Source: Streptosporangiaceae bacterium (GTDB taxonomy: Bacteria > Actinomycetota > Actinomycetes > Streptosporangiales > Streptosporangiaceae). From it: a DNA stretch of 32,122 nucleotides. The stretch covers positions 1 through 32,122 of the forward strand of contig JASHOL010000202.1 in the NCBI GenBank assembly GCA_030041135.1, given 5' to 3'. Every line of letters starts with the position of its first letter. The first letter of the stretch is position 1. Shown in pieces: positions 8,416-26,635 of the stretch. Made by a program: the position numbers and the translations under genes. The notes below the pieces were generated by a model. The model made no database searches. It saw nothing but the letters and a program-made list of their open reading frames with translations, and was not told the origin of the DNA.

Positions 8416-8429
8416 GGTGCCGCCCTCAG

Positions 8430-8805: not shown

Positions 8806-8823
8806 CGGACTCGGCCGCGCGGT

Positions 8824-9744
8824 CTACGCGGGAAGACCGGTGAGCCGCGCGCTTTCTTCCCATAGCCGTTCGCACCGCGCCGGGTCGGTGGTGTGCGGCG
8901 CGGTCTCGACTGGCTTGCGGTCGAGGAAGAACCGTCCGGTCACGCCGTCGACTTCGGCAGCGGTGGCGAGCCAGGCGGGTGTGTCGGCTCCTACATCCGG
9001 GCCTGGGGCTTCATCCGCGCCGGTGACTGACTCCGCTCGCGGTCCGCCAGGCTGGTGGCGGGGCGGCGGGAGAACGCCATCCCGGAAGGCCTGCGCGAGA
9101 AGCGCGTCCAGACCTGGCACCTCCCCACTGAGGCCGGTGCCGGAGATGATGCCGGGGTGAACGCAGTTGACGGTGACTTGTGTTCCGGCGTGGCGGCGGG
9201 CGAGTTCGAAGACGAACATCGCGTTCATGTTCTTGGTGCGGCCGTACGCGAAGAACGGCCGTAGTTCGGCGGGCTGGCCGAGGCGCTCCGGGTGGCCGAA
9301 CGTGAGGTCATCCAGGTCGACCGGGTTGCGTGCGCCGGAAACCGGATTGGCGCCAACAACGATCAGCCTCGCCTGGTCCAGGGCGGCCGCCAGCGTGCGC
9401 AAGAGCAGGTAAGGGGCCAGGTGGTTGACGGCAAGCACGCGTGGCAGGCCGTCGGATGTCATCCGGCCAAGCGGTGTCACTAGCGCCGCGTTGCTCACGA
9501 CCGCGGCGGGCCGCGGACCCGCGAGCAACCTCTCGGCGAGGTCACGTACCTGCGTGAGCTCAGCCAGGTCAGCTCGCTCAAGGATGAGATCCGCGCCCGG
9601 CACGGCGGCCTGGATTCGCTCGCGAGCCGCCCGCAGCCGCTGATCGCTGCGGCCCACCAGGGTGACGCTCAGCCCTTCGCCGGCCAGTCGCCGGGCTATT
9701 GCCTCGCCGATTCCGTTGGTCGCGCCCGTCACGACAGCGTGCAT
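8824..9744 (-). CDS. Short-chain dehydrogenase/reductase (SDR), atypical active site
   Basis: A 306-residue Rossmann oxidoreductase. The start is ATG 9744 with AGGGAGC upstream; an in-frame TTG at 9771 has no such site. It has the nucleotide motif TGATNGIG (6-13), SNAA (84-87), the NHLAPYLL block with Asn108, and the YGRTK catalytic pair Tyr167/Lys171. GRS at 31-33 after strand beta-2 would favour NADP. The strand that normally carries the catalytic Ser (VSSxA) reads LIVVGANPVSGA (127-138): the usual Ser position is Gly/Ala, and Ser136 is displaced, so activity may differ from a classic SDR. The layout resembles the retinol-dehydrogenase/WW-domain-oxidoreductase-like group. It is the last gene of the importer operon, 27 bp behind the MetE-like gene, so probably acts on a product of that enzyme or of the imported solute. 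Confidence 0.85.
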   Translation of the reverse strand: MHAVVTGATNGIGEAIARRLAGEGLSVTLVGRSDQRLRAARERIQAAVPGADLILERADLAELTQVRDLAERLLAGPRPAAVVSNAALVTPLGRMTSDGLPRVLAVNHLAPYLLLRTLAAALDQARLIVVGANPVSGARNPVDLDDLTFGHPERLGQPAELRPFFAYGRTKNMNAMFVFELARRHAGTQVTVNCVHPGIISGTGLSGEVPGLDALLAQAFRDGVLPPPRHQPGGPRAESVTGADEAPGPDVGADTPAWLATAAEVDGVTGRFFLDRKPVETAPHTTDPARCERLWEESARLTGLPA

Positions 9745-11005: not shown

Positions 11006-12115
11006 CTAGGTGTCGGTCTCGGCTGCGGCCACCCGGCTCGGGCCGACGGAACTGGCAGCGACGTGCGGCTCGCTGCCGCCTTCTTCCGGCCCGGAGCCGC
11101 CGGACAGCGGGTAGTGACAGGCGACGAGGTGGCCGTCACCGAGGGAGCGCAGCTCAGGCACTTCGACGGCACAGCGGTCGGCGGCACGCGGGCAGCGGGT
11201 GCGGAACCGGCACCCGCTCGGCGGATCGAGCGGCGAGGGCAGCTCGCCCTTGATCACGCTGGCGGGTTCCAGCTTTGCCCGCGCGGGATCGGGGTCAGGA
11301 ATCGACCTGAGCAGCGCCAGCGTGTACGGGTGCAGCGGCTCACTGTAGATCGAGCGCACCGGCCCGACCTCGCACAGCTTTCCCAGGTACATCACCGCGA
11401 CCCGGTCGCTGACCTGCCTGACGAGCGTCAGGTCATGGGCGATGAACAGGTAGGAGAGAGCGAGTTCGCTGCGCAGCTTCTCGAACAGGTTCAGCACCTG
11501 CGCCTGTACCAGGACGTCCAGCGATGAGACGGGCTCGTCGCAGAGGATCAGCTTGGGCTCCAGCGCCAGTGCCCTCGCCACCGCCACTCGCTGGCACTGT
11601 CCGCCGGACAGCTCGCGCGGATGCCGTGCGCCGTGACGGGCCGGGTCGAGACCCACGAGGTCGAGAAGTTCGCGTACGCGCTGCCGCCGCGCCTGGCGAC
11701 TGCCGACCCCGTAGGCGATCAGCGGCTCCTCGACGATCCGGGTGACCGGCCATGTCGGGTCGAGGGAAGTGAAGGGATCCTGGAAGACCATCTGCAGGTT
11801 GCGCCGCGCCGCCTTGAGGGCGCCGCGGGGCAGCCGCACGAGATCCTGGCCCTGGAAGATCACCTCGCCGCTCGCGGGCGGCGGTGCCTGGATCACCGAC
11901 CGGGCCAGCGTGGACTTCCCTGACCCGGTCTCGCCGACGATGCCGAGGGTCTCCCCCGCATGCAGCTCGAACGACACGTCGCAGACCGCCTGGAGGACGC
12001 CGCCCTTCACCCCGCCGTAGTCGCGCAGGACGAACTCCTGCACTAGGTGGCGGACATCCAGCAGGACGTCGCCGCGCGGCGGCAATGTCGCCGCTGTACC
12101 GTTCGATGCAGTCAT
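11006..12115 (-). CDS. Dpp/Opp-type ABC importer, ATP-binding protein (DppF/OppF class)
   Basis: A 369-residue cytoplasmic ATPase of a peptide/nickel-class importer. Walker A GETGSGKS (61-68), Q-loop FQDP (111-114), signature LSGGQ (169-173, followed by C where R or K is usual), Walker B LILCDEP (189-195), D-loop SSLD and switch His in LFIAHD are all present. The C-terminal oligopeptide-transporter extension contains CRFRTRCPRAADRC, a cysteine cluster shared with DppD/OppD proteins that in some homologues binds an iron-sulfur cluster. The start is ATG 12115, whose ATG overlaps the TGA of the preceding ATPase gene (ATGA), so translation is coupled. A longer frame to 12241 lies inside that gene. 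It pairs with the next ATPase to drive the two permeases. Confidence 0.93.
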   Translation of the reverse strand: MTASNGTAATLPPRGDVLLDVRHLVQEFVLRDYGGVKGGVLQAVCDVSFELHAGETLGIVGETGSGKSTLARSVIQAPPPASGEVIFQGQDLVRLPRGALKAARRNLQMVFQDPFTSLDPTWPVTRIVEEPLIAYGVGSRQARRQRVRELLDLVGLDPARHGARHPRELSGGQCQRVAVARALALEPKLILCDEPVSSLDVLVQAQVLNLFEKLRSELALSYLFIAHDLTLVRQVSDRVAVMYLGKLCEVGPVRSIYSEPLHPYTLALLRSIPDPDPARAKLEPASVIKGELPSPLDPPSGCRFRTRCPRAADRCAVEVPELRSLGDGHLVACHYPLSGGSGPEEGGSEPHVAASSVGPSRVAAAETDT

Positions 12116-13167
12116 CGTGCCGCCCCGCTCTGGATCGGATGCCAGCACGCCCACCAGCGGCCCGGTTCGTGCTGGCGCAGCGGTGGTGCCTGGTCCCGGC
12201 AGTCTTGCTGCACGTCCGGGCAACGCGGCGCGAACGGGCATCCGTCTCTCAGCACCGACTGGTCGGGCGGCCGGCCCCCCACGACCGGGAGCAGCACGTG
12301 CGGCTCGGTGTCGATCCGCGGGATGGCGTCGAGCAGTGCCTGGGTGTACGGCATGCGGACGCCGGCGAACAGGTCGCTGGCGCAGGCGCGCTCGACGATC
12401 TTGCCCGCGTACATCACCAGGACGTCTTCGGCGTAGGTCGCAGCCAGGCTCATGTCGTGGCTGATCATTAGCAGCGCGGTACCGGTCTGCCGCTGCAGGT
12501 CGAGCAGCAGCTCCATGATCTGCGCCTGAGTGGTCACGTCGAGCGCCGTCGTCGCTTCGTCGGCGATGAGCACGTCAGGTCCGCAGGCTAGCGCGATCGC
12601 GATGACGACCCGCTGCCTCATGCCACCGGAGAGCTGGTGGGGGTATTCATGGAACCGCCGCTCGGGCACGGGGATGCGCACCATCTTCAGCAACTCGATC
12701 GTGCGCTCGTGCGCCTGCCTGCGGTCCATCGGAAAGTGCGTGGTGATCGCCTCGGCGATCTGAATGCCGATCCGCATCGTCGGATTCAGCGACCGCTCGG
12801 GATTCTGGAACACCATCGCCACGTTGCGGCCGCGGTAGTCCCGCATCTCGTGGTTGCTGCGGCCGAGGACCTGCTCGCCCTTGAACCGGATCGAGCCGGA
12901 GACGTCGGCGTAGCGCGGCAGCAGGCCCATGATCGCCTGCGCGCTGACGGTCTTGCCGGATCCGGACTCGCCGATGACAGCGAGCGTCCGGCCCGGCTCC
13001 AGGGCGAAGCTGATGCCCTGCACGGCATATACGCTGCCGAGCCTGGTGCGGAACGTGACGCGCAGGTCCTCCACCTCGAGCACCGGACCCGGCGCCATCC
13101 CGACCGCCGGCGGTCCGCTGCCGTCCGCCTCCGCAGCGGTCCGGCCCCGATCGCGCAGTCGTGGCAT
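12112..13167 (-). CDS. Dpp/Opp-type ABC importer, ATP-binding protein (DppD/OppD class)
   Basis: A 351-residue ATPase. Walker A GESGSGKT (66-73), Q-loop FQNPERSLNP (120-129), signature LSGGMRQR (179-186), Walker B VLIADEA (199-205), D-loop TALD and switch His in LMISHD are present. The C-terminal CPFAPRCPDVQQDC cysteine cluster is typical of the oligopeptide transporter extension. The start is ATG 13167, which shares one base with the TGA of the upstream permease gene (TGATG), with a GGGGGG-type ribosome site. The frame continues open to 13452 inside the permease gene and is not used. It is the partner of the following ATPase gene. Confidence 0.93.
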   Translation of the reverse strand: MPRLRDRGRTAAEADGSGPPAVGMAPGPVLEVEDLRVTFRTRLGSVYAVQGISFALEPGRTLAVIGESGSGKTVSAQAIMGLLPRYADVSGSIRFKGEQVLGRSNHEMRDYRGRNVAMVFQNPERSLNPTMRIGIQIAEAITTHFPMDRRQAHERTIELLKMVRIPVPERRFHEYPHQLSGGMRQRVVIAIALACGPDVLIADEATTALDVTTQAQIMELLLDLQRQTGTALLMISHDMSLAATYAEDVLVMYAGKIVERACASDLFAGVRMPYTQALLDAIPRIDTEPHVLLPVVGGRPPDQSVLRDGCPFAPRCPDVQQDCRDQAPPLRQHEPGRWWACWHPIQSGAAR

Positions 13168-14060
13168 CACCTGACCCCCCACCGGGCCCGCAGTCCGTCG
13201 CCCATCATGTTGAGGCAGATAGCCGTCGCCAGCAGGAAGATGCTCGGCACGATGACGAGGCGCGGGTATACCGAGATGTACTGCTCGCCGGTCGCGATCA
13301 TGTTGCCCCAGGTCGCGGTCGGTGCCGGGACGCCATAACCGAGGAAGTCCAGTGCGCCTTCTAGGATGATCGTCAGGCTCGCGCCGAGCAGGCTGAAGGT
13401 CAGCAGCTGCGGCGCTATGTTGGGGGCCAGGTGCCTGACCATGATCCGCCACGTCCTGGTGCCCGCCAGCCGCGCGGCGACCACGAAGGGCTGGTCGCGC
13501 AACCGGAGCGTGGCGGCCCTCGACACCCTGGCGAAGGCCGGGATGCTGAACGCGCAGAGCGCCCAGATCACGTGAGTCTCGCTCGGCCCGAGACTGTCGG
13601 AGATCGCCAGCGCCAGCACCAGCGAAGGGAAGGCGATGAACACGTCGAGGATCCGCATCATGACCGCGTCGGTCCAGCCGCCGCGGTAGGCGGCGAACAT
13701 GCCGAACAGACCGCCGGCCGCCAGGCCTATGGCCTGTACCGCGGCCGCGACCTCAAACGACACTCGCCCGCCGTAGAGGATCCTGGACATGATGTCGTAG
13801 CCGACGGTGTCGGTGCCGAGGATGTGGCCAGGTGACCAGAGCGGCCGGTTGACCTGGAAGAGGTTCCCGACTGTCGGGTCGGGCACGCGGTACACCAGCG
13901 GCCAGATGAAGCAGAAGAACAGCAGCACGACAAGGAGCGTGCCCGGGACCATGATCTCCAGCGTGCGGAGCCAGCCGCGCGCCCGCGGCACAGCGCGGGC
14001 GGCGCCGGCGACGTCCTGCGCCGGACCGGCGCTCAGCAGCTCAGCTGCGGGAACGGACAT
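13167..14060 (-). CDS. Dpp/Opp-type ABC importer, inner-membrane permease (DppC/OppC class)
   Basis: A 297-residue integral membrane protein. A first membrane segment (TLLVVLLFFCFIWPLVY, about 41-57) is followed by the DppC/OppC hallmark HILGTDTVGYDIMSRILYGGR (GTDxxGxD), then four or five more hydrophobic segments. The EAA-type coupling loop for the ATPases is ARLAGTRTWRIMVRHLAPN. GTD..G.D distinguishes it from the DppB-type subunit. Its start (ATG 14060) lies 20 bp inside the end of the DppB-type gene, so the two subunits are translationally coupled and made in equal amounts. Confidence 0.93.
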   Translation of the reverse strand: MSVPAAELLSAGPAQDVAGAARAVPRARGWLRTLEIMVPGTLLVVLLFFCFIWPLVYRVPDPTVGNLFQVNRPLWSPGHILGTDTVGYDIMSRILYGGRVSFEVAAAVQAIGLAAGGLFGMFAAYRGGWTDAVMMRILDVFIAFPSLVLALAISDSLGPSETHVIWALCAFSIPAFARVSRAATLRLRDQPFVVAARLAGTRTWRIMVRHLAPNIAPQLLTFSLLGASLTIILEGALDFLGYGVPAPTATWGNMIATGEQYISVYPRLVIVPSIFLLATAICLNMMGDGLRARWGVR

Positions 14061-15075
14061 GACGGATCCTTGGGTCGAGCGCGCCGTAGAGAAGGTCGGT
14101 GAGCAGGTTGGCGAGGACCACGACGACGCCGAAGACGAGCACGATGCCCTCGACCACCGGGACGTCCCGGTTGCTGATCGAACTGAGGAGCTCGTAACCG
14201 ATGCCGGGCAGGGAGAAGATCTGCTCTATGATGACCGTCGCCCCGATCAGCGTGGCCAGGTTGAGCCCGATGACGGTCAGCAGGCCGATGAACGAGTTGC
14301 GGAGCGCGTGCCGGGTCAGGATCCGCCACTCGCTGACGCCCTTGGCCCGCGCCGTCACGACGTAGTCCTCGGCCTGCATCTGCTCAAGCAAGTCGGCGCG
14401 CAGGAATCGGGTGTAGAAGCCGATCAGCGGGATCGCGAGGACGATGCTCGGCAGCGTCATCGTATGCAGGTTGCCGGCTAGCGACGTGCTGAGCGAGGTG
14501 TAGCCGATCGCCGGGAATATCGACCAGTGCACGGCGAAGACGATCACGAGCAGCAACCCGAGCACGTACGGTGCGGTCGAGATGCTGGCCATCGACAGCA
14601 CCAGGGAAATCCGGTCGATGATGCCGCGCGGCCAGCGGGCGGAGAATAGGGCGAGCGGCACTGACACGACGAACGTGAGAACGAGTGCGTAGAGGATAAG
14701 CTCCAGCGTGACCGGCAGCCGCGACCCGATGATCGACGCGACCGACTGCGGGCTCGCGAGTGAGGTACCGAGGTTACCGGTCACCACCCCCCCGAGCCAC
14801 TGCCCGTATCTGGTCAACAGCGGCTCGTTGAGGTGCAGTTTGATGGAGAACGAACGGATCTCGGCGGGCGTGGCGTTGATGCCGAGCAACGCTGACGCAG
14901 CGTCACCCGGCAGCGCATTGAGTAGCAGGAACGTCAGGAACGTGACGCCCCACAGGACAGGGATGGCCGACAGCAGCCGCCGGCCGCTCACCCGCATGGC
15001 CGGAGAGCTGGCCAGGCGGCGCCCGAACGCGCTGCCTGGCCAGCGAGTCGGCTGAACTGGTACCGAGGTGCTCAT
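14041..15075 (-). CDS. Dpp/Opp-type ABC importer, inner-membrane permease (DppB/OppB class)
   Basis: A 344-residue permease. A cytoplasmic N-terminus precedes the first membrane helix, LLSAIPVLWGVTFLTFLLLNALPGD (about 34-58), which ends in the family's characteristic PGD. It continues with the typical periplasmic region (LNEPLLTRYGQWLGGVVTGNLGTSL) and several helices, and has the EAA loop VVTARAKGVSEWRILTRHALRN near residue 240. The C-terminal DLLYGALDPRIR is the usual DppB ending. The start is ATG 15075 with a weak ribosome site, 36 bp after the binding-protein gene. Confidence 0.93.
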   Translation of the reverse strand: MSTSVPVQPTRWPGSAFGRRLASSPAMRVSGRRLLSAIPVLWGVTFLTFLLLNALPGDAASALLGINATPAEIRSFSIKLHLNEPLLTRYGQWLGGVVTGNLGTSLASPQSVASIIGSRLPVTLELILYALVLTFVVSVPLALFSARWPRGIIDRISLVLSMASISTAPYVLGLLLVIVFAVHWSIFPAIGYTSLSTSLAGNLHTMTLPSIVLAIPLIGFYTRFLRADLLEQMQAEDYVVTARAKGVSEWRILTRHALRNSFIGLLTVIGLNLATLIGATVIIEQIFSLPGIGYELLSSISNRDVPVVEGIVLVFGVVVVLANLLTDLLYGALDPRIRHVRSRS

Positions 15076-15111
15076 CCCGGCGGCAATCTCAGCCTCATGC
15101 GATGAGGTACC

Positions 15112-16722
15112 TCATCCGTTGTTGTAGACGTACTGCCAGAGGATCTCCGGGTTCACGTCGGTGACTGGAAGCGGCGATGTCAGTCCGGGCCCGCCGACGC
15201 CATGGTCGGCGATGTCGTAACCGGCGATCGGGAACAGGAATGGCCCGTCGGCGTTCTTCGCGATGTACTCGGCCGCCTGGTCGTACAGCGCCTGGCGCTG
15301 GGCATCGTTGGTGGTCCCGGCCGCCGCGAGCAGCAGTCCGGTGAGCGTAGTGCTCCATACGCCGGTGAACGGCGAGGTCGAGCAGAACCGGAAGCAGACG
15401 CCGACCCCTGTGCCCGGGTCGAACGCGCCCGCAGTCTGCAGCATCGATTGCCACTTGCCCGCCTGGAACTGGCCGATCAGGCCGGTCAGGTCCCAGCTAG
15501 CGAGCGTGACCTTCATGCCGGCCGCCTGCCACTCGGTCTGGATGGCCTCGTTCAGTTCCGTGGCGGTCGGAACGCTGATCGTGCCGAGAGTGAAGCTCAG
15601 CCCGCCGAGCGACTTCACCAGGGCCTTGGCCTTCGCGAGGTCGTAGGTGATGTAGCCGGGCACTGTCTGCTCGTAGAACAGCCCTGCCGGTGCCGTGAAC
15701 GATTCCCCGACCGGGTAGGTATCGGCGAACAGGCTCTTGTCCAGCAAGGCTGCGTCCGTGGCGTAGTAGATTGCCTCCCTGGCCTTGATGTTGTTGAAGG
15801 GCGCGATCTTCGTATTCAGCTGGATGTCGTACGGCGATGTCGACGGCTCCGCAGTGGTGGTGAACTTCGCCTTGTACGCGCTGACCAGGGCCGGCGTCGA
15901 CATTCCCTCGTACGCCTGACCGGCACCCGACTCCATCGCGGTCAGCGCGTTCTCATCACTGCTCACCGGCTTGAACGTCAGCGAGTTCAGGTAGGGCAGG
16001 CCCTTCTGCCAGTAGTTCGGGTTCCGCTTGAGCACAAGCAGCGAGGACGGAGTGTCGGCCACGACCGTGAACGGGCCAGCCCCGACCGGCTTGAGCGCGA
16101 ACGCCTTCTCGCCCATCCTCTGGAGAGAGGTTGGCGAGGCGATCCAGTTGAATATGTCGCCCTGCAGGGCGTTGATGAACGGCGCATCGACGTAGGTCAG
16201 CGTCAGGGAGACGCTGTATGTGCCCGTCGCCTTGATCACTGGCTTGCCGATGAACACTGGCTTGCAGCTGCAGTTGCCGGCGAGGTCGCGGTCCCAGTTG
16301 TAGACGACCGCGCTGGCGTTGAACGGCGTCCCGTCGGAGAACTTCACGCCCTGGCGCAGTGTGATATTGACGGTCTTGCCGCCATTGGTAAAGGAGTAGC
16401 CGGTGGCCAGGTCGCCGGTTTCCTTACCGCCGGAGGTCAGCTCGAACAGCTCGCCGTAGATGGCGTCCATGTAACTCATGTTCGCCGCGCCATCGGTGTC
16501 GGTGGCCGGGTCCAGCCCGGGCCAGGCGCCGGCAAAGCTGTCACCCTCAAGCACGGTGAGCGACCCGCCGTGCTTGGGTGCCGAGCTTGAGGGTGTTGAG
16601 GTCGAAGGCTTCGACGAGCCGCAGCCGGCTAGGACAACCGCCACGACCGTCACGAGGATGACAGACAGCAGCCGCAGGGCGGACAGCCGCGCGTTGCGTC
16701 TCAGGCATGTCTTGGGTCTCAC
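15112..16722 (-). CDS. Extracellular solute-binding lipoprotein, family 5 (DppA/OppA type)
   Basis: A 536-residue lipoprotein that captures the solute for the importer. The start is GTG 16722 with GGGAGC upstream. A lipoprotein signal peptide (basic RRNAR, hydrophobic LLSVILVTVVAVV) ends in the lipobox LAGC, with Cys34 as the lipidated residue. A Ser/Thr/Pro linker follows. The mature part has family signatures GGSLTVLEGDSF, LFELTSGGKETGDLATGYSFTNGGKTVNITLRQGVKFSDGTPFNA split over 95-145, and KRNPNYWQKGLPYLNSL. This is the SBP_bac_5 (PF00496) layout. The family carries peptides, nickel, opines, sugars and many plant-derived amines, so the ligand is not predicted. First gene of a seven-gene operon. 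Confidence 0.93.
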   Translation of the reverse strand: MRPKTCLRRNARLSALRLLSVILVTVVAVVLAGCGSSKPSTSTPSSSAPKHGGSLTVLEGDSFAGAWPGLDPATDTDGAANMSYMDAIYGELFELTSGGKETGDLATGYSFTNGGKTVNITLRQGVKFSDGTPFNASAVVYNWDRDLAGNCSCKPVFIGKPVIKATGTYSVSLTLTYVDAPFINALQGDIFNWIASPTSLQRMGEKAFALKPVGAGPFTVVADTPSSLLVLKRNPNYWQKGLPYLNSLTFKPVSSDENALTAMESGAGQAYEGMSTPALVSAYKAKFTTTAEPSTSPYDIQLNTKIAPFNNIKAREAIYYATDAALLDKSLFADTYPVGESFTAPAGLFYEQTVPGYITYDLAKAKALVKSLGGLSFTLGTISVPTATELNEAIQTEWQAAGMKVTLASWDLTGLIGQFQAGKWQSMLQTAGAFDPGTGVGVCFRFCSTSPFTGVWSTTLTGLLLAAAGTTNDAQRQALYDQAAEYIAKNADGPFLFPIAGYDIADHGVGGPGLTSPLPVTDVNPEILWQYVYNNG

Positions 16723-17157: not shown

Positions 17158-18030
17158 ATGCCGGATATGCTCGACGCCTCATTGGAGGCGAGCGCACCCG
17201 CTGCTCGCACGAACGCCGCCGGCCGCCTGCTCGCGGTGCTTGACGCCTTCGGGCCGCGCAGTCGCGCGCTATCGCTCAGCGAGATCTCGCGGCGGTCGGG
17301 GCTGAGCCTGTCCACCGCCCACCGGCTCGTGCACGAACTCGTGACCTGGGGCGCGCTGGAACGTGACCCCAACGGGTGTTACTCGATCGGGGTGCGGCTG
17401 CTTGAGCTCGCCGCGCTGGCCCCCCGCGGGCTTGACCTGCGTGAGGCCGCATTTCCTTGCCTGGATGAGCTCCATCACCGCACCCGCGGCAACGTGCATC
17501 TCGGCGTTCGCGACGGCATGCACGTCGTCTACGTCGAGGCCATCCGGGCCTGCGCTACGCATCCGACCAACGGCAAGGCAGGCGACCGCTGGCCCATGCA
17601 TGCCACCGGCACGGGCCTGGTGCTGCTCGCGTACTCCGACCGGGATTTCCAGGAGGAGGCGTTGCGGCGGCCGCTGGAGCGCTACACGCCGCTGACGATC
17701 ACCGACCCGGCTCAGCTGCGCCGCAAGCTAGCGCAGGTCAGGCAGTGCGGATACGCCGTGGCGGTCGGGCAGATCACGCTGCCGGACCTGGTGGTGGCGG
17801 TGCCAGTCCACGACCCGTTCGGCGGCGTGGCCGCGGCCATCAGCGTTGTCGTCGAGGCCGCACGAGCCAGGCCGCAGGCGCTGGCCAAGATGCTGACTGA
17901 CGCCTCCGGCGAGATCACCCGCCGGCTGGCGGTACAGTCACGCCAGCCGGTTCCCGGCGCCGGGCAGCGGCGCGTAGGCTTCACGCCGGTCGCAGCTGCC
18001 ATGCGTACCAGGGTCAGCGCGTCGGCTTGA
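17158..18030 (+). CDS. IclR-family transcriptional regulator
   Basis: A 290-residue DNA-binding protein. The N-terminal winged helix-turn-helix (about 20-85) includes LSLSEISRRSGLSLSTAHRL and HELVTWGALERDPNGCYSIG. The C-terminal effector domain (about 95-265) shows the IclR pattern: LDELHHRTRGNVHLGVRDGMHVVYVEAI, PMHATGTGLVLLAYSD, CGYAVAVGQITLPDLVVAVPV and DPFGGVAAAISVVV. Start ATG 17158 with GGTGGAGC upstream. IclR proteins bind as dimers or tetramers to palindromes and usually control a neighbouring catabolic operon in response to a small carboxylic or aromatic effector. It is divergent from the importer operon, and its 3' end overlaps the convergent amidohydrolase operon by 17 bp, so it lies between the two operons it probably controls. 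Confidence 0.92.
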   Translation: MPDMLDASLEASAPAARTNAAGRLLAVLDAFGPRSRALSLSEISRRSGLSLSTAHRLVHELVTWGALERDPNGCYSIGVRLLELAALAPRGLDLREAAFPCLDELHHRTRGNVHLGVRDGMHVVYVEAIRACATHPTNGKAGDRWPMHATGTGLVLLAYSDRDFQEEALRRPLERYTPLTITDPAQLRRKLAQVRQCGYAVAVGQITLPDLVVAVPVHDPFGGVAAAISVVVEAARARPQALAKMLTDASGEITRRLAVQSRQPVPGAGQRRVGFTPVAAAMRTRVSASA

Positions 18031-19018
18031 TGCCGAGCCACCGGAACGCGTTATTCCAGGTGATGTCCTCCAGCCATTGGCCCGGCAGCTCCAGCGACCG
18101 CAGCGTCAGCCCGGCCGGGTCCTCGCGCGGCATCGCCGGGAAGTCGGTGCCGACCAGCAGCCGGTCGGCGCCGAGCAGGTCGACGAGGAAGCGGATGGCG
18201 CGGCGGTCGAACACCAGCGAGTCGTAATAGAACCTGCGCGCGAACTCCAGCGGCGACGGCCCGTCGTCCTTCACGATCGCGCGCTCTGGCACTCTGGGCT
18301 CCTCGTTCCAGGTACCGCTCCAGAAGTACTGCGCCCTTGGCAGCATCAGCGGGAAGCCGCCTGCCGCATGGCTGAACGCGATGCGCAGGTCCGGGCATTT
18401 GGCCGCGGTTCCGCCGGTGATCAGGGACGCGGCGGCGAGCGCACCCTCAAGCCCTACCACGTATGTGCCGGCCGCGGCCAACGGCAGCCGGTCATTCGCT
18501 CCGGGCATCGCGTGGACGAATACGGCCAGGCCGAGTCGCGTCGCCTCGGCGAAGAACGGCAGGAACCGCTCGTCGCCAATCGACTCCCCGAGCACGTGCG
18601 AGGAGATCTCCACACCCGCTAGCCCGCGCTCGCCGATCGCCGCAAGCTCCGCGGCGGCAGCGTCGGGATCCTGCATCGGCACCATGCCGAGCCCGATCAG
18701 CCGGGCCGGTTCGGACGAGCACAGCTGCGCGGTGAAGTCGTTGACGTGCCGGGCCAGAGCCAGCCCGTCGGCAGCCGGCAGGTCGAAGCGCAGCAGCGGC
18801 GGCATCGGGGACAGCACCTCCGCGTCGACGCCGGTGGCGTCTTGCGCGGCGAGTCGCCGCTCCGCCTCAAAAAACACGTCCCTGGCCCGGAAGCGCATCG
18901 TCCCGAAGACCAGCGTCCGGTCCGTGCTGCCCTCGATCGGCTCCATCCGCGGGAAGCACGAAGGCGCGTCCGGCGGGTAGTCACGGGGCAGCAGGTGGGC
19001 GTGGGCGTCGACAAGCAC
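18014..19018 (-). CDS. Amidohydrolase-2 protein, ACMSD-like metal-dependent decarboxylase/hydrolase
   Basis: A 334-residue PF04909 barrel. It opens with DAHAHLLP, metal ligands His6 and His8. His169 (FVHAMPG), His217 (FSHAAGG) and Asp292 (GTDFP) complete the set at the spacing of alpha-amino-beta-carboxymuconate-semialdehyde decarboxylase, which removes CO2 from a C-C bond with zinc. Start GTG 19018 with GGAGG upstream. It is the last gene of the eight-gene operon, 25 bp behind a zinc alcohol dehydrogenase, and convergent with IclR. Its HxH motif differs from the EEA motif of the decarboxylase at 1546-2652. The reaction is probably decarboxylation or ring/lactone hydrolysis; the substrate is unknown. 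Confidence 0.82.
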   Translation of the reverse strand: MLVDAHAHLLPRDYPPDAPSCFPRMEPIEGSTDRTLVFGTMRFRARDVFFEAERRLAAQDATGVDAEVLSPMPPLLRFDLPAADGLALARHVNDFTAQLCSSEPARLIGLGMVPMQDPDAAAAELAAIGERGLAGVEISSHVLGESIGDERFLPFFAEATRLGLAVFVHAMPGANDRLPLAAAGTYVVGLEGALAAASLITGGTAAKCPDLRIAFSHAAGGFPLMLPRAQYFWSGTWNEEPRVPERAIVKDDGPSPLEFARRFYYDSLVFDRRAIRFLVDLLGADRLLVGTDFPAMPREDPAGLTLRSLELPGQWLEDITWNNAFRWLGIKPTR

Positions 19019-19043: not shown

Positions 19044-20150
19044 TCAGGCGGCGGCCGGGTGAACCGAGACGTGGATGGCGTGCTCGCCCGCCACGTCTCC
19101 GCCAAGCGTCTGAATCGCCAGCTCAGCGTCATCCAGCCCGAATGTGTGCGTATGCATCTTCTCCAGCGGGAAGCGCCGCGACTCGATCAGCGCGATCGCG
19201 TCGGACATGCCCTTGGCATCGACACCGAAGGCACCGCGCACCGTCAGCGCACGGTTGATGATGAGGTCCGTCCGCACCGGGATCTCGCGGTTGCCCTTCA
19301 GTCCCGCGAGCACCACCCGCCCGCCGCGGCGGGCGGCGAGCAGCGCGTCCGAGACTGGGCCGGCCGCCAGCGGCGTCAGCTCGAGCACGAGGTCGGCTAG
19401 CTCGCCGCCGGTGATCTCCTCGACCCGTTCGACGGTGTCTTCCGCCTCGTCGCCGTCGACCACGATCGTGTGATCGGCACCGAGTTCGCGGGCCAGGGCC
19501 AGCTTGTGCGCGTCCGCGGTCAGCCCGGTGATGATGATCGTCCCGGCTCCGGCCGCGCGCGCCGCCACCACGGCGGCGATCCCGCGCTGCCCGGCCCCGA
19601 GCACGAGCACGGTCTCGCCGACCCGCACCTCGCCGAGATGGCACGCCCAGCGCACTCCGGCGCCCATCGCGTTATACGTCGCAGCCAGCTCAGCGGGCAG
19701 GCCTGGGTCCATCTTGTGCAGCACCGACGTTGGCGAGATGTACATGTACTCGGCCAGCCCGCCCCACAGGGCCGGCTCGGTGTCGATGCCGGTTACGCCG
19801 TGGCCGTACTTGCGGTTACGGCAGAACTGATACCGCCCGGTCAGGCAGTCCTGGCAAGACCGGCACGGCACGATCACCTCGAGCGCGACCCGGTCGCCGG
19901 GCTGGACGCCCCAGCGGCTGGCCGCCAGCTCGCCGACCTCCTCGATGATCCCGAGCGGCTCGTGCCCAGGGATAAACGCGGGCCTGGGCCCGCCCAGGTG
20001 TCCCCGGTAGGTCTCAACGTCGCTGCCGCAGATGCCGTTGGCCTCGACCCGCAGCAGGCCGTCGTCGGGACCGGTCCGCGGCCGCGGAAACTCGCGCAGC
20101 TCGATCTGGCCAGGGCCGACCTGAACCGCAGCCCGCACCATGTCGGTCAT
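19044..20150 (-). CDS. Zinc-dependent alcohol dehydrogenase (MDR; threonine/sorbitol-dehydrogenase-like)
   Basis: A 368-residue medium-chain dehydrogenase. Catalytic zinc ligands: Cys41 (GICGSD), His63 and Glu64 (PGHE). The structural zinc loop is complete (Cys96, 99, 102 and 110 in CRSCQDCLTGRYQFC). The coenzyme domain has VLVLGAGQRGIAAVVAARAAGA; GAGQRG departs from the usual GxGxxG only in its middle. Unlike the two other alcohol dehydrogenases of the operon it has the sorbitol/threonine-type sequence and lacks the NDMA-type ending. Start ATG 20150, sharing a base with the TAA of the upstream gene (TAATG), with GAGGAG upstream. It oxidises an alcohol with NAD(P), or reduces a ketone; substrate unknown. 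Confidence 0.9.
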   Translation of the reverse strand: MTDMVRAAVQVGPGQIELREFPRPRTGPDDGLLRVEANGICGSDVETYRGHLGGPRPAFIPGHEPLGIIEEVGELAASRWGVQPGDRVALEVIVPCRSCQDCLTGRYQFCRNRKYGHGVTGIDTEPALWGGLAEYMYISPTSVLHKMDPGLPAELAATYNAMGAGVRWACHLGEVRVGETVLVLGAGQRGIAAVVAARAAGAGTIIITGLTADAHKLALARELGADHTIVVDGDEAEDTVERVEEITGGELADLVLELTPLAAGPVSDALLAARRGGRVVLAGLKGNREIPVRTDLIINRALTVRGAFGVDAKGMSDAIALIESRRFPLEKMHTHTFGLDDAELAIQTLGGDVAGEHAIHVSVHPAAA

Positions 20151-21265
20151 TACGTCTCCTCTGCACTTCGTCCGTGCTCGCCGGCATGGGCGTCGCTGGC
20201 ATTGCCGGGACCAACATTCGCCGCGTCTGGCCCGGTCACCTGGACGGCAGCCCCCGACCAGTCGGCGAACATGCGCACGACCATCGAGATGCCCGCGTTG
20301 CGCGCGCCGGCGACCGCGATCAGCAAGTTCCTGCGGTCGTCGCTGGGCAGCGTGCGCTGGAACTGCGTGGTCGGCTGTCCGTCGCCTGGTAGCCGGAGCC
20401 GGCCGTCGAGCCGGTCCTTTCCCGCTGCGGCCAGCTCCGCGGTGCTGCGGCCCGAGTGCCCGGCGAGCCAGGTCCTCACGTGCGCGCGGTCATACCCGGC
20501 CGCGGCGAGCAGCTGAGCGTGCTCGGGGCAGAATACGATCCCGGCCTGGGCATGCTCGAAGATCCACGAGCCGGACCGCCCGATCGTGTCGGCGAAGTCG
20601 CCGAGCAATTGCTCGGCGCTGCCGGTATGCCGGTTATCCACGAACTCGCAGGTGCGCAGCAGCGTCGCCGACACTGCGGACGCGCCGTCCGGCAGGCCTG
20701 CCTCGGTGGCGAGCGGAGGCCACGGACTCTCCTCCTCGTTCTCCGCGACGCAGATCGACCAGCGCCCCGGCAGCCCCTGGGTGGCCTGCTCCAGCTCGTG
20801 CGGGAGAATTCCGTACACGTTGCGCACGATCAGGCCGATCGCCCGCGGCACGGTGGCATTGGGCCGGAATCCGGGCCCGAAGGCGCCGCCGGCGCAATTG
20901 AAGCCGAGCTCGGTCCTGACCGGGCCATTGATCACGATCAGCGGGGCCGGCCCGCTCGTCGACTGCCATCCGCCGCCTCCGGTCGCGCGCTCGCGCATCA
21001 GCGCTTCCCAGGCGGCCAGCACGACAGGGAAGTACTCGGGCCGGCAGCCGGCCATCACCGCGTTGATCGCGGCCAGCCGCACCGTCACGACTCGGTCGAG
21101 CTGGGGCAGCTGCCCGATCACCTCATCCGGGCTGCGTCCGGTCGCCGCCAGGAACTTGTCCACCAGCGGCTGCGTGGCGGGCACCAGCGGCAGCCCGTCG
21201 GACCAGCCCTGCTCATAACAATGCTCGATGGCCGCCTGGGCGGCATCGGGATCGAGAACGGTCAC
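20150..21265 (-). CDS. Conserved partner of the UGSC-family protein, function unknown
   Basis: A 371-residue soluble protein with no signal peptide or membrane helix. Conserved-looking blocks are CYEQGWSDGLPLVPATQPLVDKFLAATGRSPDEVIG split over 16-50, AAINAVMAGCRPEYFPVVLAAWEAL (64-88), PLIVINGPVRTELGFNCAGGAFGPG, RPNATVPRAIGLIVRNVYG and CVAENEEESPWPPL. I recognise this pattern as an uncharacterised actinobacterial family usually encoded beside UGSC proteins; that association is from memory and should be checked. The last 30 residues are low-complexity. Its GTG overlaps the TGA of the UGSC gene (GTGA), so the two are coupled and probably form a complex. Notable residues are Cys16, Cys74 and the Cys of FNCAGG, which could take part in thiol chemistry with the CGSC protein. 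Confidence 0.75.
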   Translation of the reverse strand: MTVLDPDAAQAAIEHCYEQGWSDGLPLVPATQPLVDKFLAATGRSPDEVIGQLPQLDRVVTVRLAAINAVMAGCRPEYFPVVLAAWEALMRERATGGGGWQSTSGPAPLIVINGPVRTELGFNCAGGAFGPGFRPNATVPRAIGLIVRNVYGILPHELEQATQGLPGRWSICVAENEEESPWPPLATEAGLPDGASAVSATLLRTCEFVDNRHTGSAEQLLGDFADTIGRSGSWIFEHAQAGIVFCPEHAQLLAAAGYDRAHVRTWLAGHSGRSTAELAAAGKDRLDGRLRLPGDGQPTTQFQRTLPSDDRRNLLIAVAGARNAGISMVVRMFADWSGAAVQVTGPDAANVGPGNASDAHAGEHGRSAEET

Positions 21266-21855
21266 CGTGCCGTCCCTGAGGGACGACCGCCCGGATCAGG
21301 ATTGAGAACACCTGGCTGAGTGAGCATGGCCACTACCTCGGGCGCCAGCCGCTTTGCCCGCTGCCTGACCTGGTCGGCGTCGAGCACGGCAACCGGATGC
21401 TCGGTGAGGATGTACTGGTAGCCGCGGGCGCCGCGCATCGCCGCCATCGCATCCGCGGTCACCGCGAAGGCGTCGCTGCAGATCACCGCGGCGGGCATGC
21501 CAGCCTGCTCGAACACGATGCCGTCGGCGACGGCGGATGCGCTACAGGATCCGCAGTCGCCGACGCCGGTGATCACCGCGTCGCACTCCTGGCGGAACCG
21601 CTCGACCAGGTCGGCGGGGGCGGGCGCGGCGAAGTTCGGCTTGGTCTCGGCGATCGTCACGGACATGGAGTGATCGGCGGCCAGGAGGTCGCCGATCTCG
21701 GCTAGCAGCAGCGCGGCATTGTGCTTGGTGTTGTTCAGCAGGCCCACGCGCAGACCGCCCGGCTCCGGCCGGCGGGGCGCGAGCTCGAACCGTGCGGCGC
21801 TGGGCCTTGTGGCCGCGCCGGCCCGCCCGGTCGGGTCGAGGATGACATTGGGCAT
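21262..21855 (-). CDS. UGSC-family protein, cysteine form (Cys-Gly-Ser-Cys)
   Basis: A 197-residue protein. It begins with NVILDPTGR (3-11), then GGLRVGLLNNTKHNAALLLAEI (33-54), a segment VTIAETKPNFAAPAP, and the signature ITGVGDCGSCSASAVADG (95-112) with Cys101 and Cys104, followed by GMPAAVICSDAF. In relatives the first Cys can be selenocysteine (U-G-S-C), hence the family name. Here the codon is TGC, so no selenium machinery is needed. The family's reaction is not established; the C/U-x-x-C pair after a beta strand resembles redox-active sites of reductases such as the glycine and proline reductase families. Start ATG 21855. Coupled by a GTGA overlap to its partner, 16 bp behind an NDMA-type alcohol dehydrogenase. 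Confidence 0.8.
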   Translation of the reverse strand: MPNVILDPTGRAGAATRPSAARFELAPRRPEPGGLRVGLLNNTKHNAALLLAEIGDLLAADHSMSVTIAETKPNFAAPAPADLVERFRQECDAVITGVGDCGSCSASAVADGIVFEQAGMPAAVICSDAFAVTADAMAAMRGARGYQYILTEHPVAVLDADQVRQRAKRLAPEVVAMLTQPGVLNPDPGGRPSGTAR

Positions 21856-21871: not shown

Positions 21872-23011
21872 TCAGGGTTGCTGGTGCGGCTCGTGCTCGT
21901 GGACGATCACGCCGCGGATGTTCTTGCCGTCATTCATGTCCTGGTAGGCCTCGTTCACCTGCTCGAGCCGGTACTTGCGGGTGACCAGCTCGTCGAGCTT
22001 GAGATCGCCGGAACGGTACAGGCGCAGCAGCCTGGGGATGTCGTAGAGAGGGTTGCTGTCGCCGAACAGCGCGCCCCGTATCTGGCGCATGTAGCTGATC
22101 AGCAAGCCCGCGGGCAGGTGCACCGCGTGCTCGTCGAAATGGCCGACCGCCGTGATCGTGACCTTGCCGCCCTTGCCGGTCATCAGCACGGCGGCGTTCA
22201 CCATGTCTTCGGTGACCACCCCCGGCGTGAGGATGACGTGGTCGGCGAGCTGACCCCAGGTCGTCTCCACCACGAACTCGTGGGCGTCCTTTGCGGTCGC
22301 GAACGCGCGCGTCGCTCCGAAGACCGTCGTGGCCATCTCCCGCTTGAACTCGACCGGGTCGACGACGATCACGTCCTTCGCGCCGGCGAACCTCGCTCCC
22401 TGCACCGCGTTGCTGCCGACGCCGCCCGCTCCGAAGATCACGACGGTGTCGCCGGCCCCGACCCCGGCCGCGTGCACCGCCGACCCCCAGCCGGTGGGGA
22501 CACCGCAGCCAACCAGGCAGGCGATCTCCCAGGGGATCTCCTCCGCGAGCGGCACGCAGGCCCACTCGGACACGACCGCGTACTGCGAGAACGTTCCGAG
22601 CGTGCAGAAGCCGCCCAGGTCCTCGCCGCCCAGGTGGAACCGGAACGTGCCGTCCAGGAACATGCCGGTCCCCGCGTTGAGCCCCTTCACGCACATGTTC
22701 TGGTGGCCGGTCGAGCACGGGCGGCAGGCGCCGCAGGCCGGGATGTAGGAGCAGACGATCCGGTCGCCGGGCTTGACCCGGCGCACGTCAGGACCGACCG
22801 ACTCGACGATGCCCGCGCCCTCGTGGCCGCCGACGACCGGCAGCCGCACGCGGGCGTCCCCCGAGGTGATGTGGTCGTCGGAGTGGCACAGGCCGGCCGC
22901 CATCAGCTGCACCCGGACCTCGTGCGCCTTTGGGTCGTCGAGCTGCAGATCGGCCATTTCCCAGCCGATATGCGGGGCCCTGGCGATTGCGGCGCGGGTG
23001 GTGATCTGCAT
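21872..23011 (-). CDS. NDMA-type zinc alcohol dehydrogenase (mycofactocin-associated), copy 1
   Basis: A 379-residue MDR enzyme. Catalytic zinc: Cys42 (GLCHSDDH), His63 and Glu64 (GGHEGAG). Structural zinc: Cys93, 96, 99 and 107. Rossmann motif VVIFGAGGVGSNAVQGA. The pattern GLNAGTGMFLDGTFRFH and the ending MNDGKNIRGVIVHEH identify the nicotinoprotein/NDMA-dependent group, in which NAD(H) stays tightly bound and electrons are passed to mycofactocin or an artificial acceptor (family knowledge). Start ATG 23011 with GAGGAAGG upstream; an in-frame GTG at 23032 would place the ribosome site inside the gene. A second close homologue stands at the head of the same operon. It oxidises a primary alcohol to an aldehyde, which the operon's aldehyde dehydrogenase can take up. 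Confidence 0.9.
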   Translation of the reverse strand: MQITTRAAIARAPHIGWEMADLQLDDPKAHEVRVQLMAAGLCHSDDHITSGDARVRLPVVGGHEGAGIVESVGPDVRRVKPGDRIVCSYIPACGACRPCSTGHQNMCVKGLNAGTGMFLDGTFRFHLGGEDLGGFCTLGTFSQYAVVSEWACVPLAEEIPWEIACLVGCGVPTGWGSAVHAAGVGAGDTVVIFGAGGVGSNAVQGARFAGAKDVIVVDPVEFKREMATTVFGATRAFATAKDAHEFVVETTWGQLADHVILTPGVVTEDMVNAAVLMTGKGGKVTITAVGHFDEHAVHLPAGLLISYMRQIRGALFGDSNPLYDIPRLLRLYRSGDLKLDELVTRKYRLEQVNEAYQDMNDGKNIRGVIVHEHEPHQQP

Positions 23012-23028
23012 GGGCGGCGCTTCCTTCC

Positions 23029-24015
23029 TCACGCTGCGGTGCCAGCCCGAGACCTGGGAGACGCGGTGGCGAGCTTGGGAATGACCTCGGAGCCGATGAG
23101 CGCGATGTGATCCAGGTCGTGGATGTCGAAGATGTGCAGGTAAACGGTGTCGGCGCCGACGGCGGCGAGGTCGCCGATGCGATCGCTCAGCAGTCCGGGC
23201 GGGCCGATCAGCATCGACTCGCGGATGCGGGGCGAGCCGACGATAGCCGCCCGCCGCTCGGCCTCAGCCTGAGAGGACCCGATCGCCACCGGGATGAAGC
23301 CGGACAGCCGGGCGTCGCGTGGATCGCGTCCGATGGCCTCGCAGGCCCGGCTGAACACCGCGAATCGGTCGCGGGCCTCGGCGACCGTGCTGAGCGCCGA
23401 GTTGAACTCGGTCGCGAACCGCGCGGCGATGGCCGGCGTCCGGCGCGGCCCGCCGCCGCCCACGATGACCGGCGGGTGCGGCCGTTGTGTCACCCGCGGC
23501 GGCGTGCGGTTGTCCTGGACCTGGTAGTGCCGTCCCTCGAACGAGAAGCTGTTCTCCGGCCCGGCGAGCCACAGTCCCGTGATTATCCCGAGCTGTTCTT
23601 CCAGCCGGTCGAAGCGCTCCCCCATCGGGGGAAATGGAATCCCGAAGGCAGCATGCTCGCGCTCGTACCAGCCGGTGCCGATGCCCAGCTCCACCCGGCC
23701 GCCGCTCATCTGGTCAACCGAGGCCACGATGGCCGCGAGGAGGCCGGGAGCCCGGAAGGTCGCGGCCGTCATCAGTGAGCCGAGCCGGACCGTCGTCGTG
23801 TCGCGAGCCAGCCCGCCCAGGGTGGTCCAGCAGTCGGTCGGCTCGTAGTCGGGATCGTTCGGATCGACGCCGAACAGGTGGTCGGACCGGAAGAAGGCGT
23901 CGAAGCCCGCTCGCTCGGTCGCGAGCGCCAGCGCGAGGATGTCCTCGTAGCGCGCGCCGTGCCTGGGCTCCATCAGTACGCGCAGCCGAACCGGACCGCC
24001 GTGCGGGCCGGTCAC
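23029..24015 (-). CDS. LLM-class flavin/F420-dependent oxidoreductase
   Basis: A 328-residue luciferase-like barrel. Typical blocks: ILALALATERAGFDAFFRSDHLFG (26-49), TTTVRLGSLMTAATFRAPGLLAAIVASVDQMSGGRVELGIGTGWYEREHAAFGIPFP split over 73-128, and HPPVIVGGGGPRRTPAIAARFATEFN. GIGTGWYxxEHxAFGIPFP is common in the F420-dependent actinobacterial subgroup, but FMN use cannot be excluded. Members oxidise alcohols, reduce enoyl or imine bonds, or monooxygenate with a partner. Start GTG 24015 overlaps the TGA of the aldehyde dehydrogenase (GTGA), and its own stop lies just upstream of NDMA-ADH copy 1. Its role is probably one oxidation or reduction step of the same pathway. Confidence 0.9.
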   Translation of the reverse strand: MTGPHGGPVRLRVLMEPRHGARYEDILALALATERAGFDAFFRSDHLFGVDPNDPDYEPTDCWTTLGGLARDTTTVRLGSLMTAATFRAPGLLAAIVASVDQMSGGRVELGIGTGWYEREHAAFGIPFPPMGERFDRLEEQLGIITGLWLAGPENSFSFEGRHYQVQDNRTPPRVTQRPHPPVIVGGGGPRRTPAIAARFATEFNSALSTVAEARDRFAVFSRACEAIGRDPRDARLSGFIPVAIGSSQAEAERRAAIVGSPRIRESMLIGPPGLLSDRIGDLAAVGADTVYLHIFDIHDLDHIALIGSEVIPKLATASPRSRAGTAA

Positions 24016-25490
24016 GCGCTACTCCCGGTACCGCGCAGCGACACGGTCTTGACCTGGGTGTAGTCGAGTACCGAGTCGCCGCCCATCGTCCGTCCAAAGC
24101 CGCTGTGCTTGTAGCCGCCGAACGGCCCGCCGATTATGCCGGCGCCGAGCGCGGCGTTCACGTGCACCTGGCCCGCCTGCAGCTTGCGGCTCATCCGGAC
24201 CGCCCGGCCGACGTCCCTCGTCCAGACCGACGCGACGAGCCCGTAATCAGTCCCGTTCGCGACCGCGACCGCCTCGTCTTCGTCGGTGACCGTGAGAACC
24301 GACAGGACCGGCCCGAAGATCTCTTCCCTGGCGATGCGCATGCCCGGCTCGACCCGGTCGAACAGCGTGGCCTCGACGAAGTAGCCGCCCTCGTACCTGG
24401 CTCCGGCCGGGACGCCGCCACCGGTCACCAGTTCGGCCCCTTCTTCCCGGCCGAGGCGCAAGTAATCGAGCACTCGTGCGTGCTGCCTGGCGTTGATCAG
24501 CGGGCCCATCTGGACCTGCTCGTGCCATGGGCCAACCTGAACCTCCCGCATCCGCGCCGCCAGCCGGTCTACCAGCTCGCTGTGCACCCTCTGGTCGGCG
24601 ACGACGCGCGAGCCGGCCGCGCAGATCTGCCCGGTGTTGAGCGTGATGCCGGCGACCATCGCCGGGACGGCCGCGGCGAGGTCGGCGTCGGCGAACACGA
24701 CCTGAGGGGACTTGCCCCCCAGTTCCAGGTGCAGGGGCGTGAGGTTCCTGGCACAAGCCGCCATGACCGAGGCCCCGGTGGCGGGCGAGCCGGTGAAGCT
24801 CATCCGGCGAATGCCGGGATGCGCAGGGATCGCCGCGCCGGCCTCGGCGCCGTACCCGGTGACCACGTTGATGACGCCGGGTGGGATGCCTGCCTCCAGG
24901 GCGAGTTTCGCCAGCGCGAGCGCGGTCAGCGGCGCGTCCTCGGCCGGCTTGATCACGATCGTGTTGCCGGCGGCGATCGCGGGCCCGACGTCGGTGACGA
25001 ACATCGGCCCAGGTGCATTCCACGGGATGATGGCACCCACCACTCCGTAGGGCTCGCGCAGCGTCAGCCCGATGACCTCAGGCGACATGGTCGGCAGCGA
25101 CAGGCCGCTGACCTTGTCCGCCTGGCCGGCGACGAACCGCAGGATCCTGGCCATTGGCGGCGGCCCCCAGGACGGGTGGCCGACCTCGAGGCACTCGAGC
25201 CTCGTCACCTCGGCCGCGCTGGCATCAATGAGCTCCGCCCAGCGGGCCAGCAGCCGACCGCGGGTCGTGGCGTCGGTGTCGCGCCAGGCGGGAAAGGCCC
25301 GCTGCGCAGCCGTGACGGCCACGTCGACGTCCGCGCTCGCGCTGCGGGGCACGGCGGCGAGCACGTCACCGGTGGCCGGGTTGATCACGTCGATCGTCTG
25401 GCCGTCGCGGGCCGGGACCCACTGGTCCCCGATCAGCTGCGCGCCGCCAATGATCATCGGGCTCGTCGGGTCGGCGGAGATGATAGTCAT
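24012..25490 (-). CDS. Aldehyde dehydrogenase (NAD(P)+)
   Basis: A 492-residue ALDH-superfamily enzyme, oxidising an aldehyde to the acid. Landmarks: VVGAIIPWNAPG with Asn158 of the oxyanion hole, VIKPAEDAPL with Lys181, SFTGSPATGA (coenzyme turn, 231-240), ELGGKSPQVV with general base Glu256, NTGQICAAGSR with nucleophile Cys290, and EEIFGPVLSV. Length and motifs are normal, so it should be active. Start ATG 25490, 35 bp behind NDMA-ADH copy 2. Alternating ADH-ALDH-LLM-ADH gene order implies two alcohol oxidations feeding one aldehyde dehydrogenase, or a substrate with two oxidisable ends. Confidence 0.94.
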   Translation of the reverse strand: MTIISADPTSPMIIGGAQLIGDQWVPARDGQTIDVINPATGDVLAAVPRSASADVDVAVTAAQRAFPAWRDTDATTRGRLLARWAELIDASAAEVTRLECLEVGHPSWGPPPMARILRFVAGQADKVSGLSLPTMSPEVIGLTLREPYGVVGAIIPWNAPGPMFVTDVGPAIAAGNTIVIKPAEDAPLTALALAKLALEAGIPPGVINVVTGYGAEAGAAIPAHPGIRRMSFTGSPATGASVMAACARNLTPLHLELGGKSPQVVFADADLAAAVPAMVAGITLNTGQICAAGSRVVADQRVHSELVDRLAARMREVQVGPWHEQVQMGPLINARQHARVLDYLRLGREEGAELVTGGGVPAGARYEGGYFVEATLFDRVEPGMRIAREEIFGPVLSVLTVTDEDEAVAVANGTDYGLVASVWTRDVGRAVRMSRKLQAGQVHVNAALGAGIIGGPFGGYKHSGFGRTMGGDSVLDYTQVKTVSLRGTGSSA

Positions 25491-25525: not shown

Positions 25526-26635
25526 CTAGTGCTCGTGCACGATCACGCCGCGGATGTTCTTGCCGTCGAGCATGTCCTGGTAGCCCTCGTTGACCTCGTC
25601 GAGCCGGTACCGGCGGGTGATCAGCTCGTCGAGCTTCAGGTCTCCCGACTGGTACAGGCCGATCAGCAGCGGCACGTCGACGAGCGGGCTGCAGCCGCCA
25701 TAGATGGACCCCTGGATCCGGCGCTGGTAGCCGATCAGCATGCCAGGGTTCTCATCAATCCAGCCCTTGCCGACTGCGGTGATCGTGACCTGGCCGGCCT
25801 TGCCGACGACGCTGATCGCGTCGTGGATGACCTCGTCGGTCAGGATGCCAACGGTGATGATCGCGTGATCGGCCAGCTCGCCCCAGGTGGTCTGGACGAC
25901 GAACTCGTGCGCCTCCTTGGCACTGGCGAACGTGTGGGTGGCCCCGAAGACGCCGGCCATCTCCCGCTTGAACGGCACGGGATCCACTACGATCACGTTC
26001 TTCGCGCCGGCCAGGCTCGCACCCTGCACGGCGTTGCTGCCGACGCCGCCTGCGCCGTAGATCACCACGGTGTCGCCTGGCCGGACGCCGGCGGCCCGCA
26101 CCGCCGATCCCCAGCCCGTTGGCACCCCGCACGCCACCAGCGCGGCGACGTCGAACGAGATTTCCTGCGGGATCTTGATGACCGAGAACTCGGAGACGAC
26201 CGCGTACTGCGAGAACGTGCCGAGCACGCATAGCCCGCCGAAGTCCTCGCCGTCGGCGTGGAACCGGAACGTGCCATCAGGGAACATCCCGGTGCCCGCG
26301 TTCTTGCCGGCGTCGCACAGGTTCTGGCGGCCGGTCGAGCAGTACCGGCACGAGCCGCAGGCTGGAATGAACGAGCACGTCACGTGGTCGCCCAGCACCA
26401 CCCTGGTGACGCCCTCGCCGACCGCATCGACTACCCCGGCACCCTCGTGCCCGCCCACCACGGGCATCCGCATCGGCGCGTCGCCCTTCTGGATGTGATC
26501 GTCGGAGTGGCAGAGCCCGGCCGCGTGGAACTTGATCCTGACCTCGTTCGCCTTCGGCTCGTCGAGCTCAAGTTCAGTGATCTCCCAGGGCAGGCCCGGC
26601 GCGCGGCAGACCGCGGCCCTGGTGGTCATGCTCAT
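25526..26635 (-). CDS. NDMA-type zinc alcohol dehydrogenase (mycofactocin-associated), copy 2
   Basis: A 369-residue enzyme and the first gene of the eight-gene operon. It aligns without gaps to copy 1 over the zinc region: Cys42, His63, Glu64 and structural Cys93/96/99/107. It also shares VVIYGAGGVGSNAVQGA, GKNAGTGMFPDGTFRFH and the ending MLDGKNIRGVIVHEH. Start ATG 26635 (or ATG 26629, MTTRAA) with GGAGAGGAA upstream; the open frame to 26761 is non-coding. It is clearly a paralogue, but differences near the substrate channel (for example IKIPQEISFDVAALVAC against VPLAEEIPWEIACLVGC) suggest another alcohol. NDMA-type enzymes normally need mycofactocin for turnover; no mft gene is in this window. 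Confidence 0.9.
   Translation of the reverse strand: MSMTTRAAVCRAPGLPWEITELELDEPKANEVRIKFHAAGLCHSDDHIQKGDAPMRMPVVGGHEGAGVVDAVGEGVTRVVLGDHVTCSFIPACGSCRYCSTGRQNLCDAGKNAGTGMFPDGTFRFHADGEDFGGLCVLGTFSQYAVVSEFSVIKIPQEISFDVAALVACGVPTGWGSAVRAAGVRPGDTVVIYGAGGVGSNAVQGASLAGAKNVIVVDPVPFKREMAGVFGATHTFASAKEAHEFVVQTTWGELADHAIITVGILTDEVIHDAISVVGKAGQVTITAVGKGWIDENPGMLIGYQRRIQGSIYGGCSPLVDVPLLIGLYQSGDLKLDELITRRYRLDEVNEGYQDMLDGKNIRGVIVHEH

Follow-up and report, generated by a model that had tools for sequence, protein, structure and literature searches.

A cysteine-form UGSC protein and its partner in Streptosporangiaceae: a candidate thioredoxin-dependent reductase resembling glycine reductase

UGSC-containing proteins were described by Zhang and Gladyshev in 2008, and their function is listed as uncharacterised in a 2026 review (PMC13188914). 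The curated family (PF24696 / NF041046) takes in both selenocysteine (Sec) and cysteine (Cys) forms. An ocean (GOS) survey from 2008 places UGSC as "likely Trx-like" and reports a UGSC/Unknown_1 fusion, in which UGSC is joined to a second conserved Cys-containing domain (PMC2398784). The enzyme with which we compare UGSC below is glycine reductase GrdB (PF07355); PrdB is homologous to it (PMC13188914), and the comparison was made with GrdB sequences.

The UGSC gene and its partner

The window, by which we mean the whole 32,122-nucleotide stretch of Streptosporangiaceae DNA analyzed here, encodes a UGSC-family protein of 197 amino acids on the minus strand (positions 21262 to 21855). The protein matched PF24696 with an E value of 1.6e-60 (204.6 bits against a cut-off of 25) and NF041046 with 170 bits (cut-off 125). 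It is like the rest of the family in being full-length, in scoring above both cut-offs, and in carrying the U/C-G-S-C motif, and it differs in having Cys for Sec and in the obligate partner shown here. The motif GVGDCGSC occupies residues 97 to 104, with CGSC at 101 to 104. As the initial annotation had read, the codon at the Sec position of the family is TGC (21553 to 21555, minus strand) and not TGA, and the window protein is thus a Cys form, as are 16 of 52 loci. A plausible ribosome-binding stretch, GAGAGGGAG, lies ahead of the UGSC ATG. The partner gene (371 amino acids; 20150 to 21265, minus strand) opens with a GTG that overlaps the UGSC stop codon in the tetranucleotide GTGA (21262 to 21265, minus strand), an arrangement that points to translational coupling and that had likewise been recognized from the start.

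The initial annotation had proposed an alignment of Sec and Cys forms that would reveal the invariant cysteines. We aligned 52 UGSC loci, comprising the window, 3 close relatives, 8 plasmid-borne loci, and 40 stretches from the host's own and other genomes of the phylum. The CGSC motif was conserved: position 101 is Sec, encoded by an in-frame TGA, in 36 loci and Cys in 16, which agrees with the expectation of Sec at the first motif position in other members, and Cys104 is present in 52/52. In the best of five AlphaFold2 models of UGSC (mean pLDDT 75.9; the other four were at about 55), alternating strands and helices form a predicted Rossmann-like beta/alpha fold, in which CGSC lies between strand 93-99 and helix 102-117, that is, after beta-3 and at the helix N-terminus. 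Foldseek and VIA matched this model to generic Rossmann/flavodoxin-like folds and to no specific family. One UGSC-partner fusion (L159:7408-9075; G136 C25) has GDMGTSS at the motif, with Met and Ser replacing Sec/Cys and Cys, while keeping the MAGC of the partner, and is possibly a non-redox variant. No relatives were found in the viral contigs searched.

The window partner had no significant match in Pfam, NCBIfam, or PDB, nor did any member of its family have a convincing one, and its AlphaFold2 model (mean pLDDT 37.5) gave no usable fold. UGSC and the partner share a strand and are at most 107 bp apart in 50 of the 52 loci, which are all 50 loci uncut by a contig end; the remaining two UGSC genes are near contig ends. 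Across 396 sampled genomes of the phylum, with UGSC scored as positive above the cut-off, the partner occurred in 27 of 27 UGSC-positive genomes and in 1 of the 369 others (G183; Fisher test, 5e-41). In addition, the two are naturally fused in L059, L095, L097, L099, and L101, each as one frame that runs through both domains without a stop between them, apart from the TGA for Sec within UGSC. The partner family therefore accompanies UGSC almost always, and computationally the association is obligate. The GOS UGSC/Unknown_1 fusion probably has the same architecture as these five fusions.

Several loci vary the arrangement of the pair. On two haloarchaeal plasmids (L054:5905-8576 and L055:8858-11542), a partner gene lies on either side of UGSC. 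In L062:8109-9761 (G000 C467), a Sec-type UGSC gene ends in a TGA that shares the reading frame of the partner start; readthrough of this stop as well would join UGSC and partner into one frame. The genome G183 encodes tandem partner-domain proteins (L158:193-2124 and 6903-9092; C272), with no UGSC gene found in the genome, and one of these copies has Ala at the Cys74 position. A partner copy for which no UGSC was detected also occurs in G362 C91.

The initial annotation had listed three cysteines of the partner, all in conserved-looking blocks. The window partner has six (residues 16, 74, 124, 172, 206, and 246), and only part of that list stood: Cys74 is conserved in 52/53 aligned partners, Cys16 and Cys124 (the Cys of FNCAGG) are not conserved, and of the three nearest relatives, two already have Ala or Thr in place of Cys124. 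Cys172, conserved in 47/53, was absent from the list. The other conserved residues are D23, G24, A72, G73, G114, R141, E175, and G320. The near-invariance of Cys74 raises the alternative that catalysis belongs to the partner, with UGSC in an accessory or regulatory role. The G136 fusion, which has lost both UGSC motif residues and kept MAGC, and the partner copies in G183 and G362 C91 would fit such a division of labor, but one of the G183 copies itself has Ala in place of Cys74. Moreover, U or C at position 101 and Cys at 104 are conserved across 52 loci, and the costly Sec is retained in most of them, which argues for a catalytic role of UGSC. We therefore regard catalysis by the partner as unlikely, and a catalytic UGSC as the better reading.

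Thioredoxin linkage and likeness to GrdB

A thioredoxin-like domain that contains CxxC or CxxS, followed further on by V/M-P-T, is fused to the N-terminus of the partner in 18 Sec-type loci. The alignment of these fused domains matched TrxA with a P value of 4.5e-6, and one of them gave a weak AhpC-TSA match below the cut-off. None of the 16 Cys forms, the window included, has the fused domain. The likeness to thioredoxin and AhpC-TSA-like domains thus resides in the CxxC/CxxS domain on the partner in Sec-type loci, whereas the window pair has none and UGSC itself is dissimilar by profile. Gene order provides a second connection, with trxB-trxA-partner-UGSC in Arthrobacter and partner-UGSC-trxB in Roseovarius. 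A kinship of UGSC itself with thioredoxin was considered and is not supported: profile P values were 0.02 to 0.06 and the model topology differs, although the structure search pointed to no specific fold.

Taken together, the thioredoxin linkage and the conserved U/C-x-x-C indicate two-electron thiol redox chemistry. The isolated conserved cysteines of the partner, Cys74 and Cys172, could also be accommodated in a thiyl radical enzyme or in a purely thiolate, non-redox one, which we consider very improbable in light of these two features and because no radical-generating protein was recognized nearby. Of the two mechanisms that the initial annotation had entertained, the two-protein thiolate/selenolate redox enzyme is now well supported by the pairing, the fusions, the U/C-x-x-C motif, the thioredoxin domain, and the trxB/trxA neighbors; the thiyl mechanism is unsupported, with no radical-generating gene recognized among the genes examined.

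We then compared UGSC with GrdB, using actinobacterial GrdB sequences read through their TGA. With hhalign, the UGSC alignment matched GrdB with a P value of 3e-6 and placed Sec on Sec. The score was 47.9, compared with 20.2 or less in 60 column shuffles, and it was 45.0 with the Sec/Cys columns masked. The N-terminal 250 residues of GrdB scored 15.7 against UGSC. Among 328 templates, six GrdB sequences were within the top seven for UGSC; in the same run, a score of 40.4 fell to one unrelated dehydrogenase of the Rossmann type, over the N-terminal region, which agrees with the Rossmann-like model and cautions that a common fold can produce scores near 40. The region of similarity, which spans only about 80 residues, pairs the UGSC C-terminal half with the GrdB Sec domain. 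When 32 UGSC members were searched with hmmscan (E up to 1), GRDB (PF07355) was not among the 25 families listed out of 27, and the host genome had no PF07355 match. UGSC and GrdB thus have in common a C-terminal Sec domain that aligns Sec on Sec, and a thioredoxin linkage; they differ in that UGSC, at about 180 amino acids, stands alone as a protein, and its partner is unrelated to GrdE. The partner had been considered as a homologue of the pyruvoyl proprotein subunit (GrdE/PrdA), and this was rejected, with a P value of 0.51 for the partner alignment against GrdE, so that the pair has no recognizable GrdE-like subunit. On the strength of the aligned Sec domain, UGSC may work like a glycine-reductase-type enzyme; its membership in the GrdB family is not established. 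L102, L104, and L128 encode short proteins that resemble GrdB, contain a UPVC motif, and match PF07355 in its C-terminal part alone; in the phylum sample, partial matches to PF07355 of similar length are common.

Sec and Cys forms in the history of the family

The host genome encodes SelA, SelB, and SelD and has a tRNA-Sec, and it contains two further UGSC-partner pairs, both of the TGA type. In G000, selA is split between the ends of contigs C291, which also has selB, and C418, which also has tRNA-Sec and selD; this suggests one sel cluster broken by assembly. We masked the Sec/Cys column and built a tree, in which the window clade (the window and L023 to L025, all Cys forms) was sister to one of the host Sec paralogues (support 98/93). 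Its well-supported branches require a minimum of four switches between Sec and Cys.

Some 14 nt past the TGA, Sec forms have a hairpin that is stabler than synonymous-codon shuffles (mean z, -2.2), compared with a mean z of -0.8 for Cys forms under the same shuffles. We folded the corresponding region of the window, which runs from the codon for Cys101 across the site of the SECIS-like hairpin in Sec relatives (21508 to 21555, minus strand), against synonymous-codon shuffles. The SECIS-like hairpin is lost in the window (z of 0) and kept in L023, L024, and L025 (z of about -2), with hairpin P values that are individually modest (0.03 to 0.05) and come from relatives that are not independent. 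Cys forms that retain remnants of SECIS structures have been described before (PMC1794560). The hairpin in close relatives, along with the Sec machinery and the Sec paralogues, argues that the Cys form arose from a Sec form; given the modest P values and the dependence among relatives, we take this direction as probable, not proven. In the window copy, then, Cys has probably replaced the Sec of an ancestral enzyme, in a host that still uses Sec in two paralogues.

Gene neighborhood and the proposed enzyme

All of the neighboring genes described here are on the minus strand. Immediately upstream of UGSC is a gene for an NDMA-dependent alcohol dehydrogenase (21872 to 23032; TIGR03989, 500.8 bits), a neighbor that recurs in L023, L024, and L025. 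Farther upstream are an F420-type LLM oxidoreductase (23029 to 24015; TIGR03560), an aldehyde dehydrogenase whose open reading frame overlaps it (24012 to 25490; PF00171), and a second NDMA-dependent alcohol dehydrogenase (25526 to 26635; TIGR03989, 512.5 bits). Downstream, the start of a zinc-type dehydrogenase gene (19044 to 20150; PF08240/PF00107) abuts the partner end, and an amidohydrolase is also present (18014 to 19018; PF04909); both have homologues in L023, L024, and L025. Farther downstream, an ABC importer, of the Opp/Dpp type by sequence reading, is represented by a binding protein, two permeases, and two ATPases (11006 to 16722); in L023 and L025, its homologues also adjoin the pair. 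The module is conserved almost whole in L023 (81 to 97% identity) and in large part in L025 (about 57 to 69%). The dehydrogenases, amidohydrolase, and importer form a putative catabolic operon, which suggests that the substrate of the window enzyme is probably an imported small organic molecule. An open reading frame elsewhere in the window (4885 to 5862, minus strand) resembles formyltetrahydrofolate deformylase (PurU) by sequence reading.

Across lineages, neighborhoods differ widely, from TRAP transporters and CoA-transferases to housekeeping-looking genes, and they proved too varied to decide the substrate from gene context. An alternative is that the pair serves in stress defense or repair, as a thiol/selenol oxidoreductase that reduces peroxides, sulfoxides, or other oxidized molecules, and not as a catabolic bond-cleaving reductase. 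Many selenoprotein families have such roles, and the "likely Trx-like" placement in the GOS survey (PMC2398784), the thioredoxin fusion to the partner, and the examined neighbors in the f30 actinobacterial loci, which look like housekeeping and not catabolic genes, are consistent with it. Against it are the poor thioredoxin profile match of UGSC and its Rossmann-like model, as well as the transporters, CoA-transferases, and dehydrogenases that surround the pairs of the window, haloarchaea, and Roseovarius. We judge a defense or repair function to be a contender of clearly lower probability than a catabolic reductase. Roles with electrophiles or metal(loid)s, in which Sec or Cys would serve as a ligand, have been suggested for the SaoB, SaoC, and UXX-star selenoproteins (PMC13188914). 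We give such a role little credence for UGSC, since in the annotated neighborhoods we noted no metal transporter, MerR-type regulator, or arsenic or mercury gene next to the pair, the sole zinc ABC binding-protein annotation being about 2 kb off in L059.

We put at about even the chance that UGSC and the partner together make up a two-subunit reductase that depends on thioredoxin and uses thiolate chemistry of the GrdB/PrdB kind. In such an enzyme, the partner would bind the substrate, and the thiolate at position 101 (selenolate in relatives), at the N-terminus of the helix, would attack it as in glycine and proline reductase. The attack would cleave or reduce a bond beside an activating group. 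Cys104 would then resolve the intermediate, leaving a disulfide (a selenenyl-sulfide in Sec forms), and thioredoxin, fed by thioredoxin reductase, would reset the enzyme.

The broader reading, to which we assign a probability somewhat short of even, is that the pair represents an undescribed class of two-subunit selenoenzyme in actinobacteria, proteobacteria, and haloarchaea: a relative of glycine and proline reductase that lacks a GrdE-type pyruvoyl subunit, is run by thioredoxin, and is convertible between Sec and Cys. With an obligate partner, a remote homology to GrdB, and a link to thioredoxin, UGSC becomes a testable enzyme, and the Cys form of the window, which would be expressible without Sec machinery, offers a convenient entry point.
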